A stretch of 64,000 bases of DNA. Source: Flavobacterium sp. GTDB taxonomy: Bacteria > Bacteroidota > Bacteroidia > Flavobacteriales > Flavobacteriaceae. This document shows positions 183 to 38,079 of this stretch, piece after piece. The first letter of the stretch is position 1. Every line of letters begins with the position of its first letter. Where the stretch lies: positions 124,001 to 188,000 of the forward strand of contig NZ_JAPZSP010000018.1 in NCBI RefSeq assembly GCF_027531705.1, written 5' to 3'. The position numbers and the translations under genes are program-made. The notes under the pieces were generated by a model, which was not told the DNA's origin, searched no databases, and saw nothing but the letters and a program-made list of their open reading frames with translations.

Positions 183-2315
183 ATGAACAAAAAAATTATA
201 CTATTCTTTAGTTTATTTATTGCGTTTACTTCTCAAGCGCAATTGAAAAAAATCACTCTAGAAGACGGCGTTTTACAACAAGGAAGAAAATTTGGAGCTG
301 ATAAATTAACTGGTTTTCAATGGATTCCGAACACTAACAAATATGTTTATTACACAGATGCTTGGACCAAAATGATGTCGGCTACAACAACCGATTCAAA
401 AGCTTCTGAATTAGCAACTTTATCCGAAATCAATTCAGCTTTAGGAACTAAATTGAGAAATTTCTCTGGTGTTGAATGGATAGATGCTTCAACTATTTTA
501 GTTTCAGAAAATGGAAAATATTATACTTATTCTTTGACTTCAAAATCGGGAAAAAGTATTCAAGAAACTGCTGAAACTGCCGAAAATCAAACATTTGATA
601 AAGCAAAACAAAACTTAGCATTTACTGAAGGAAACAATTTATTTTTCTTCAATAAAAACAAAGAAAAGATTACTGTAACTAATGAAAGTAACAAAGGAAT
701 TGTTTCGGGACAAACTATTTCTAGAAACGAATTTGGAATTTCAGGTGGAATATTTTGGTCGCCAAAATATTCTTATTTAGCTTTTTACCAAAAAGACGAG
801 ACAGAAGTTGCCGATTATCCATTATTAGACATTAATGAAACACCAGGAAAATTAGTTTCAATAAAATATCCTATGATTGGTCAAAAATCGGAAAAACCTA
901 GAGTTGGAATTTACAATCTTTCAACTGGAAAAACGGTTTTCATTAAACCAAAAAACAATGCTGATGATTATTTAACCAATCTTTCTTGGACGCCAGACGA
1001 AAAATATGTTTTGATTGCCGAATTAAACCGTGGTCAAAATGATATGTGTTTGAATGTTTACGATGCCAATTCGGGAGCATTTGTTAGAACTATTTTAAAC
1101 GAAACTAGCGACAAATGGGTTGAACCAGAACACGATGCCTTTTTTCCAAATGAAAAATCAAACAACTTCGTTTGGCATAGCGAAAAAGATGGTTTTCAAA
1201 ATTTATACTACTACTCTATCGATGGAAAATTGATTAAAAAATTGACAAATAACAAATTTCCAGCAAGAGAAATCATTAGTGCAAATACAGCTGGAACCGA
1301 AATTTATTTTAAAGCAACTGGTGCTAATCCTACCAATATGTTGGTTTACAAAGTTGATTTAAAAGGAAAACAAACCCTGATTACCAAAGACGAAGGCGTT
1401 CATAATGTAGCCATTTCTTCTGATTATAATTGGATTTTTGATGAATTTTCTAATCATTCAACACCTTCAAAATCATTGTTGTATAACAAAAGTTTAAAAG
1501 CTACCACATTGTTAGAAAGCAAAAACAAATACGACGGTTACGAAATGGGAACAGCCGAAATCAAAACAATAAAAGCAGCCGATGGAACAACCGATTTATA
1601 CACAAGATTAATTAAACCAAGCAATTTTGATCCTAACAAAAAATACCCAGTTATGGTGTATGTTTATGGCGGACCACATGCGCAAATGATTACCAATTCC
1701 TATTTGGATGGCGCCAATTTGTGGATGTATTGGATGGCAGAACAAGGTTATTTAGTATTTACAGTTGACAATCGCGGTTCTGACAATCGCGGATTTGCTT
1801 TTGAAAGTGTGATTCATGGAAAATGTGGAACTAACGAAATTGAAGACCAAATAAAAGGTGTAGACTATTTAAAATCATTGCCTTATGTTGATGGAAATCG
1901 TTTAGCTGTCCACGGTTGGAGTTATGGCGGATTCATGACGAGTTCGTTAATGCTTAGAAAACCAGATGCTTTCAAAGTGGGTGTTGCCGGCGGACCAGTG
2001 GTTGACTGGAAATGGTACGAAGTAATGTACGGCGAAAGATATATGGACACGCCAGCTGAAAACCAAAAAGGTTTTGACGAAGCAAGCGTTCTAAATTATG
2101 TAAAAGATTTGAAAGGAAAACTGCTCCTCATTCACGGAACTAGCGATGATGTTGTGGTGGAACAACACAATTTAGCATTGGTTAAAAAATTCGTAGAAGC
2201 TGGCAAACAAGTCGATTTTTTCCCTTACCCAATGCACAAACACAATGTGACTGGAAAAGACAGAGTACACTTGATGACCAAAGTTTTGAACTATATAATT
2301 GATAATAATAAATAG
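183..2315 (+). CDS. S9 family peptidase, dipeptidyl peptidase IV-like
   Basis: Signal peptide; DPPIV-like beta-propeller N-terminus; GWSYGGFM nucleophile motif; C-terminal Asp/His region. Confidence 0.93.
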   Translation: MNKKIILFFSLFIAFTSQAQLKKITLEDGVLQQGRKFGADKLTGFQWIPNTNKYVYYTDAWTKMMSATTTDSKASELATLSEINSALGTKLRNFSGVEWIDASTILVSENGKYYTYSLTSKSGKSIQETAETAENQTFDKAKQNLAFTEGNNLFFFNKNKEKITVTNESNKGIVSGQTISRNEFGISGGIFWSPKYSYLAFYQKDETEVADYPLLDINETPGKLVSIKYPMIGQKSEKPRVGIYNLSTGKTVFIKPKNNADDYLTNLSWTPDEKYVLIAELNRGQNDMCLNVYDANSGAFVRTILNETSDKWVEPEHDAFFPNEKSNNFVWHSEKDGFQNLYYYSIDGKLIKKLTNNKFPAREIISANTAGTEIYFKATGANPTNMLVYKVDLKGKQTLITKDEGVHNVAISSDYNWIFDEFSNHSTPSKSLLYNKSLKATTLLESKNKYDGYEMGTAEIKTIKAADGTTDLYTRLIKPSNFDPNKKYPVMVYVYGGPHAQMITNSYLDGANLWMYWMAEQGYLVFTVDNRGSDNRGFAFESVIHGKCGTNEIEDQIKGVDYLKSLPYVDGNRLAVHGWSYGGFMTSSLMLRKPDAFKVGVAGGPVVDWKWYEVMYGERYMDTPAENQKGFDEASVLNYVKDLKGKLLLIHGTSDDVVVEQHNLALVKKFVEAGKQVDFFPYPMHKHNVTGKDRVHLMTKVLNYIIDNNK

Positions 2316-2320
2316 TTTTT

Positions 2321-2452
2321 TTAGAAGCTAATCCTACTATCCGCTCTATCTTTTCTTTTTTAAAGAAAAAAAGAAAAGGATGCCGCTCCAAACACGAAGT
2401 GTTCACCGAACACCAATAAAAAATAAAAGCCTCAGTGAGGTAATCAGGGCTA
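2321..2452. repeat. Dispersed hairpin-cored repeat, copy 1 (TTAGAAGCTAAT…CCGCTCTATCTTTT…AAAAGGATGCCGCTCC…GGGCTA)
   Basis: Shares end and core blocks with the reverse complement of 37605-37732; central ATCTTTTCTTTTTT/AAAAAAAGAAAAGGAT inverted repeat. Confidence 0.7.
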
Positions 2453-2455
2453 ATG

Positions 2456-2495
2456 AACCCCAAATTCCAATACAACTATAGTGGAATTTGGGGTT
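2456..2495 (+). terminator. Hairpin terminator
   Basis: 14-bp perfect stem AACCCCAAATTCCA/TGGAATTTGGGGTT followed by T run. Confidence 0.75.
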
Positions 2496-2573
2496 TTTAA
2501 TTTAAACTCAATAAACATTTTTACTTATATTTGTTATTGACTGACTTGTAAATACTAGAAAATCATATAATTT

Positions 2574-3581
2574 ATGGTTTGTATAAATGAGTTAGCGATA
2601 ATTATAACGAAAATCAAGAATCAAATGCAATCAATAGATTATAATAAAGAAACAAATAAAATTTACTTTTTTGAAAATTGGATTATATCGGTTTTTACAA
2701 TTGATATGAAGTTTATAAATGAAATTAAACTAAATATTAATTTTTCTGGAATCGAAAAAATTACTCATTTCAAATATATAATAGTAAATAATTCATTTGA
2801 AATAATTTGCAGAGATTATCATAATATACAATGTTTTCTCTTTGACATAAATGGTCATAATATTTTACAGAAAACATTATCAAATAATAGAAAAGAAATA
2901 TTGTTGAATTTAAACAATGACAATTTTATTGAAGTTTTTTTTACAGATGAACATCATAGCTATGATGCTAATTGTAAATTTTATAAAGACAATAAAGAAA
3001 TTTTAAGTAGTGATTTACATGATGAGTTGGAAAAAATAGAAAAAGACTGGTATGGATATGAATATATAGAATGTTTAAAAAGCACAAATGTATCAAATCA
3101 ATTTTCTTTTATTACTGTTCATGCTAATTATGGGGTACAAGGTGTAAAAATATATCAAATCAATTCCTTATCAAATTTGGACTTATTATATGATATGGAT
3201 GATTTAGACTTTGATGGAGCTTTCCATAATTTGACTTTTAATTCAAAAGGTGAAAAGTTTATTTTGCTTCTCTATGAAAGAGATAAGAATTTAAATGATT
3301 ACATTTCTATCTGTGAATATTCAATTGATAACAACAAAAAACCGAATATAATATTCAAAACTGATTTTGGATATTGGGAATATAATGAACTTTTCACTCA
3401 TTATTTAACTGATACAGTTCTGTGCATAGTGAGAAATTCCGATATAATATTGTTTGATTTAGTTACTGGAAAGGCTAAGGAAATTTTAAATAGAGACTTG
3501 AATTCTATTTATTTCGTAGATTTCAATATTTTAATTTACCAAATAAACAAAAAAATGATAGTAACTCAATACCAATATTAA
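2574..3581 (+). CDS. Hypothetical protein, very AT-rich
   Basis: 335-aa ORF with no recognised motif; flanked by repeats. Confidence 0.7.
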   Translation: MVCINELAIIITKIKNQMQSIDYNKETNKIYFFENWIISVFTIDMKFINEIKLNINFSGIEKITHFKYIIVNNSFEIICRDYHNIQCFLFDINGHNILQKTLSNNRKEILLNLNNDNFIEVFFTDEHHSYDANCKFYKDNKEILSSDLHDELEKIEKDWYGYEYIECLKSTNVSNQFSFITVHANYGVQGVKIYQINSLSNLDLLYDMDDLDFDGAFHNLTFNSKGEKFILLLYERDKNLNDYISICEYSIDNNKKPNIIFKTDFGYWEYNELFTHYLTDTVLCIVRNSDIILFDLVTGKAKEILNRDLNSIYFVDFNILIYQINKKMIVTQYQY

Positions 3582-3700
3582 CTACCGCTAACAGGTGTTC
3601 GGCAAGATTGCGTATTTTGTGGTAAATTCACGTTTACGTTTCGCAAGAAATATTATCTTTAACAGAAAAAAATCAGTTCCGAAGTTTACAACTGACGAGA
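3582..3700. repeat. Putative fragment of a dispersed repeat (CTACCGCTAACAGGTGTTCGGCAAGATTGCG…CGCAAGAAATATTATCTTTAACAG)
   Basis: Starts at the stop codon of the preceding ORF; internal inverted pair TTGCG/CGCAA; resembles repeats remembered from other Bacteroidota genomes (not verified). Confidence 0.4.
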
Positions 3701-3753
3701 AGCGGCGAAACATTCAAATTTCAGTAGAACTATTAGAAATTATCTAAAATATT

Positions 3754-37550: not shown

Positions 37551-37604
37551 TAAGTATAAATATTTGTTTTACAAAGGTAACAAAAGAAAAAATGGAAACC
37601 TATC

Positions 37605-37732
37605 TAGCCCCGATTGCAGTGGAAATCCTTTTTTAAACCTGACAGGTTTTAGAAACCTGTCAGGTTTAAAAAAGATTGGAACGTAAAGCGGGAATTACCA
37701 TTACTGATAAATCCCGAACCATTCGCTCCTAA
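37605..37732. repeat. Dispersed hairpin-cored repeat, copy 2
   Basis: TAGCCCCGATTGCAGTGGAAATCC…perfect 22-bp stem 37628-37649/37653-37674…GATTGGAACGTAAAGCGGGAAT…CGCTCCTAA. Confidence 0.85.
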
Positions 37733-37734
37733 TT

Positions 37735-38079
37735 TTACATATCGAAATCTTTTTTGATTTCTTTGACAGCGTTTACAATTTGATTTTCGATACTTTCGAA
37801 AGTAGCGTTGATTTCGCTTCTTTTTCCTTCAGCTCTTGTCCATGCTTCGACCTGAAGAATTTCTTCGTACGCAACGTTCATTCCCAACAAATCGAGAGAA
37901 GGTTTGATTTTATGTGCATAAGCGTACGCTTGTTTGTAATCTTTTTCTTTTATTCCAGATTTGATAAGTGTTAAATCTTCGGGAACTTCGGTTACGAAAA
38001 GTTCTAAAATGGAGTTTACAAATTCAGGATCATTGTCTGAAAGCGCGTAAACTTTGGCTAAGTTGTAGTTTAGGGCCAT
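37735..38079 (-). CDS. Hpt (histidine phosphotransfer) domain protein
   Basis: AYAYAHKIKPSLDLLGM phosphotransfer motif. Confidence 0.85.
   Translation of the reverse strand: MALNYNLAKVYALSDNDPEFVNSILELFVTEVPEDLTLIKSGIKEKDYKQAYAYAHKIKPSLDLLGMNVAYEEILQVEAWTRAEGKRSEINATFESIENQIVNAVKEIKKDFDM

Follow-up and report, generated by a model that had tools for sequence, protein, structure and literature searches.

Flavo-1 (Rfam family RF01705) is a motif of the Flavobacteriaceae and their relatives, which has had no assigned function since 2010 and is filed as an sRNA. Pneumococcal BOX elements and BIMEs are small modular repeats that form mosaics of sub-modules in intergenic DNA. On the basis of covariation, Flavo-1 was published as a probable RNA (PMC2864571), and in F. 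psychrophilum its matches lie sense or antisense to genes without preference, many of them outside transcribed regions (PMC9723704). REP and RAYT-mobilized palindromes, which are GTAG- or CGTC-tagged, are small, dispersed and mostly located downstream of genes, and the CGTC-tagged REPs also occur without a known transposase (PMC3733652). Finally, template switching at quasi-palindromes, which has been described as passing from one arm of a repeat to the other, either in a single molecule or across sister molecules, results in arm homogenization and loop inversion (PMC8604942).

The elements analyzed here have the taxonomic range of RF01705, and both copies in the window, i.e., the whole 64,000-nt stretch of Flavobacterium DNA under study, score above its cut-off. 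However, they lack the wobble pairing that the sRNA filing would imply, their tails and an additional arm lie outside the model, and their interiors are swapped between fixed frames. Similar to REP sequences, they are small, dispersed and mostly downstream of genes, but they are larger (about 80-130 nt), have no GTAG end tag and no link to a RAYT, and exchange their hairpin within a frame that stays in place. Like BOX elements and BIMEs, they are mosaics of sub-modules in intergenic DNA; whereas the sub-units of the latter are arranged in tandem and vary in number, the Flavo-1 modules are nested within a single hairpin and undergo replacement at orthologous sites. Literature searches turned up no named Flavobacterium repeat of this type. 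The family itself is known, and the fixed frame, the exchanged hairpin, the docked arm and the DNA-like pairing appear to be undescribed in the searchable literature.

The two members of RF01705 occupy positions 2321-2453 and 37602-37735 of the window. The model matches the first on the minus strand at 2326-2403 (model positions 1-76, 44.5 bits, E 2.7e-6) and the second on the plus strand at 37602-37699 (75 bits, E 1e-14), and both matches exceed the Rfam-curated gathering cut-off of the covariance model (42 bits). The earlier note had assigned 2321-2452 and 37605-37732 to one repeat family on the basis of common sequence blocks. On re-reading, these blocks are present where it put them, and the common membership is borne out by the two scores; its start at 2321 stands, whereas the end needs to be moved to about 2453, the last base of GGGCTAA (2447-2453). 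The entire 132-nt element finds an 85% match at C43:157512-157639 (E 2.4e-33), and partial matches to it with E<=0.001 occur at 40 genomic places.

The motif strand of the first copy is the minus strand (TTAGCCC...CTTCTAA), on which the order is TTAGCCCTGATT..arm..GGAGCGGCATCC..hairpin..GATAGAGCGGATAGTAGGATTAGCTTCTAA, a short-tail form with arm. Its 5' end TTAGCCC (plus strand GGGCTAA, 2447-2453) is followed by a GATT junction (plus strand AATC, 2442-2445), and after this junction is docked a conserved arm of 52 nt, ACCTCAC...GTGTTCGGTGAACACTTCGTGTTT (2390-2441, minus strand), located between GATT and GGA. The model match begins within this arm and therefore leaves out the actual 5' end of the motif at 2447-2453. 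The swappable core is a T/A-rich hairpin on the minus strand (2349-2379), and many paralogs have the same core class. This copy sits between the TAG stop codon (2313-2315, plus strand) of an upstream gene encoding a Peptidase_S9 protein of the prolyl oligopeptidase family and an intrinsic terminator, CCCCAAATTCCA...TGGAATTTGGGGTTTTT (2458-2498, plus strand). The second copy, on the plus strand, is a long-tail form with a AAACCTGACAGGTTT hairpin as its core and is flanked by an Hpt-domain gene and a cinA-like gene.

A search with RF01705 revealed 92 matches in this Flavobacterium genome, of which 82 exceed the cut-off; 14 control genomes yielded no match. Collecting the family genome-wide, a check proposed in the earlier note, gave ~90 copies; a 5' side, TAGCCCnGA, and a 3' side, GCnGGA, are common to the copies and nearly invariant. 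Two kinds of tail were distinguished after GCnGGA, a short one (..AGCTYCTAA) in 31 of the sorted copies and a long one (..GATAAAGCCCGAGCCATTCGCTCCTAA) in 42. A third form has the ends GCGTTAGGG...GCCCGACC; in this subtype (GCGTTAGGG...GCCCGACC...AACGCC) the interior is common with the TAGCCC type and the ends are not (C25:81947-82040, C24:15698-15785, C53:110252-110346, C8:49867-49960 and C51:24901-24989). The short helices between the ends consist of CCYG/CRGG, a 2-bp YN/NR and a 2-bp RY/RY, bordered by A.G or G.A mismatches and followed by a core stem with a bulged C. The core ranges from almost nothing (GGCACGAAGTAG) through long hairpins (AAACCTGACAGGTTT...AAACCTGTCAGGTTT) to nested repeats (CTGAGCGCAGTCGAAG), and hairpins of other repeats appear to have been captured in the loop. 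Four copies (C23:5960-6102, C54:86929-87071, C50:114644-114773 and C23:68326-68451) have a long structured core with a common GAGCGACCAACGGAAGCTC-like hairpin between TTTTTTCTTG...TTAGAAAAAA, and this hairpin with its flanks is apparently a separate nested module. Small TCCCGAA..TTCGGGA hairpins were also observed within the long tail of three G213 copies (L278, L293 and L310), whose orthologs in G188 are without them.

RF01705 is present in 54 of the 148 sampled Flavobacteriales genomes, representing 17 of 54 genera, and its copy number differs between two close species (36 vs 61). Spread by phages or plasmids was rejected, as no match was found in phages or plasmids, nor in viral contigs by one exact-pattern scan.

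At orthologous sites across species, the frame TTAGCCCnGA...GCnGGA with its short or long tail persists behind stop codons; the distance from a stop to the 3' end of the element is typically about 10 nt. At the S9 peptidase site, ten of 30 compared species have the element between the stop codon and an intrinsic terminator, and in most species without it the terminator follows shortly after the stop. That the element is itself an intrinsic terminator was rejected for this site, as a separate terminator follows the first window copy and its orthologs. The cinA/Hpt site is filled in this genome and in G013, holds variants in G007 and G001, and lacks the element in most congeners; the C25:81947 site shows a clean 119-bp difference between this genome and G013. 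Empty sites, which it had been proposed to seek in close strains, thus exist at all three places among the compared species. Filled and empty sites show no consistent target-site duplication, the species compared being too diverged.

The frame is usually antisense to its flanking genes: where both neighbors point the same way, the motif strand runs antisense to them 48 times and sense 11 times (p 1.2e-6). Replication-strand bias is the less likely cause because matches lie on both strands of the 928-kb contig C1 of G188 without a clear pattern, and a link of orientation to genes is therefore likelier. The position behind stop codons, ahead of terminators at the S9 site, together with the orientation bias and the many interior sequences, mostly hairpins, would be expected if any hairpin behind a stop were selected for mRNA 3' protection or insulation, its sequence drifting while pairing stays. 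We consider this very unlikely, since it leaves unexplained the invariant TAGCCC/GCnGGA frame, the near-identical interiors at unrelated sites of one genome and the arm at one junction, and many species are without the element at the same gene.

Were an RNA strand under selection, G.U pairs would be expected to outnumber A.C pairs. Among the pairs counted in Flavo-1 copies, 1428 were Watson-Crick, 22 G.T and 20 A.C, whereas in the tRNA control (the window and G013) 294 pairs included 24 G.U and no A.C. The frame-fixed helices P1 and P2 contain 9 G.T and 15 A.C pairs; the core stem P3 leans towards G.T (13 vs 5 A.C). It should be noted that the p-values of this test are optimistic because the copies are related. 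Pairing that is almost strictly Watson-Crick, with G.U not above A.C, speaks against selection on an RNA and favors a palindrome maintained as DNA. On this evidence, which falls short of proof, and with the placement of the F. psychrophilum matches, the DNA-level palindrome is the better reading. A functional structured RNA, either an sRNA or a cis element whose covariation reflects selection on folding, would account for the strong covariation of P1/P2 pairs, which agrees with the original proposal (PMC2864571), for the A.G/G.A mismatches kept on the Flavo-1 strand, and for the 5' transcribed regions that overlap some matches in F. psychrophilum (PMC9723704). Nevertheless, we regard such an RNA as distinctly unlikely, given the F. 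psychrophilum matches that show no strand preference and often fall outside transcripts, the wobble counts unlike those of tRNA, the antisense placement in 48 of 59 codirectional cases, and the wholesale replacement of interiors between sister species.

Such replacement is evident in most of the orthologous copies compared. At sites filled both in this genome and in G013, the tail and flank align and the interior mostly differs. In the sister species G188 and G213, with flanks of about 90% identity, a fixed scoring rule was applied to 20 orthologous pairs: similarity of at least 0.8 was retained by the upstream 45 nt in 13 pairs and by the tail in nine, but by the interior in only two. The ends and position of a copy are thus kept while its core differs, in line with the conserved ends and swappable core proposed earlier. 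A same-genome paralog was at least as close in the interior as the ortholog in 18 of the 20 G188/G213 pairs (ortholog closer in 2; sign test p 4e-4) and in 17 of 21 G000/G013 pairs (G000 being this genome; ortholog closer in 4; p 0.007), although the best paralog is a maximum over many copies, so that part of this excess is expected. When equal numbers were compared as a correction, each of the six comparisons put the nearest interior closer within a genome than across genomes (p 0.05 to 4e-6); the effect is consistent, though modest. Thus, the inner cassette of the imperfect hairpin is exchanged at a high rate and often resembles another copy of the same genome. The exchange is nested, affecting the whole interior, the core stem or the loop only. 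In the L275/L278 orthologs, the loop is inverted, as has been described for polymerases that switch templates between inverted repeats, and arm homogenization is a further likeness to that process (PMC8604942); unlike there, the donor for Flavo-1 would be a copy elsewhere.

The arm (consensus ACYTCAC...GTTCRGTGAAC...GTTTG) is present in many Flavobacterium species. In the sequences compared, ACYTCAC..TTTTATTTT..ATTGGAGTTCRGTGAACTTCGTTTG follows GATT in 9/9 instances, mostly at the 5' junction (TAGCCCnGATT) and in some at its 3' counterpart (stem..AAAAGATT). Across 84,980 species genomes, a pattern for the arm returned 79 stretches, 77 of them distinct; GATT is not independent evidence here because the pattern itself began with it. 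Automatic sorting assigned 41 stretches to the 5' site and 16 to the 3' site, and the 20 that it could not assign seem by eye to be variants of these two sites. No free-standing copy of the arm was seen: all nine instances and, by eye, all 77 stretches lie inside a Flavo-1-type frame. Behind the S9 peptidase gene, the arm is present in G216 and absent in G408, with related cores, and it is likewise present in G213 (L320) and absent from the orthologous copy in G188 (L261). Hence the ~50-nt arm is a discrete, clean add-on for which two pseudo-symmetric GATT junctions are available, the 5' one being used in the window copy, and the description of the element as modular in the earlier note was right in this respect. 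The end that was then read as interrupted is not: the arm-bearing element is about 79-84% alike over its full length at other loci of many species, and therefore represents a conserved subfamily.

The ~90 dispersed copies, the 36 vs 61 copies in two close species, the filled and empty sites at the same junction, the 119-bp difference and the inverted TTAG...CTAA motifs, which are the only inverted termini and are lacking in some copies, could indicate a REP- or MITE-like element moved in trans by an end-recognizing transposase, with ortholog differences arising by repeated excision and re-insertion. We find this unlikely. The ends differ among subtypes (TAGCCC vs GCGTTAGGG), the invariant ends are TAGCCC and GCnGGA rather than a GTAG tag, which is not at the palindrome end, no consistent target-site duplication is seen among the diverged species compared, and the frame and near flank stay while the interior alone changes. 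This genome has two Y1/RAYT-type transposase genes (L147, G000:C12:14359-14703; L148, G000:C54:84963-85178), with distinct palindromic repeats of their own, a ATCCCGTAGGGAT type and a GGCACGAGCTAGAAGCTCGCGCTAGC type, unrelated to Flavo-1. Within the 1.5 kb examined, neither Y1_Tnp gene has a Flavo-1 copy directly beside it, the nearest being at about 1.75 kb, and the genomes G078, G140, G148 and G025 are rich in Flavo-1 without any Y1_Tnp. A RAYT as the driver was rejected on these grounds. The recognition of the ends suggested earlier, presumably by an enzyme, may exist; no transposase linked to the element was found, and the nested exchange goes beyond the ends alone.

On balance, we lean towards Flavo-1 being a dispersed intergenic palindrome of the Flavobacteriales, a fixed DNA frame in which hairpin cassettes are replaced through template switching or are exchanged between copies. 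The exchange mechanism is one that we infer: selection or mutation may keep the palindrome near-perfect at the DNA level, the extruded hairpin would stall or be cut during replication, and synthesis would be completed on another copy through template switching or ectopic gene conversion via the conserved ends. The ends common to all copies comprise only about 10 nt, which is short for RecA-dependent conversion and counts against this reading. By analogy with what has been proposed for REP sequences, the element may be tolerated or useful as a nonspecific hairpin of 3' untranslated regions. It is decidedly improbable, in our estimate, that a dedicated DNA exchange system uses the frames as docking sites, with an enzyme that acts on extruded single-stranded hairpins, swaps the cassettes and adds the arm at the two GATT junctions; if so, the genome would hold about 90 fixed sockets and a circulating pool of hairpins.

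If it were shown that the maintenance of a palindrome and the swapping of cassettes at the DNA level can produce the Flavo-1 covariation, the RNA filing would be corrected, and the same demonstration would serve as a warning for other covariation-based RNA calls. With most interiors differing between flanks that are about 90% identical, this turnover offers a ready bacterial system for watching hairpins drive template switching or ectopic conversion. Around the first copy, the interval from the S9 peptidase gene to the next shared gene (2316-3740 of the window) is made up of unrelated sequence, 1424 bases here vs 482 in G013.
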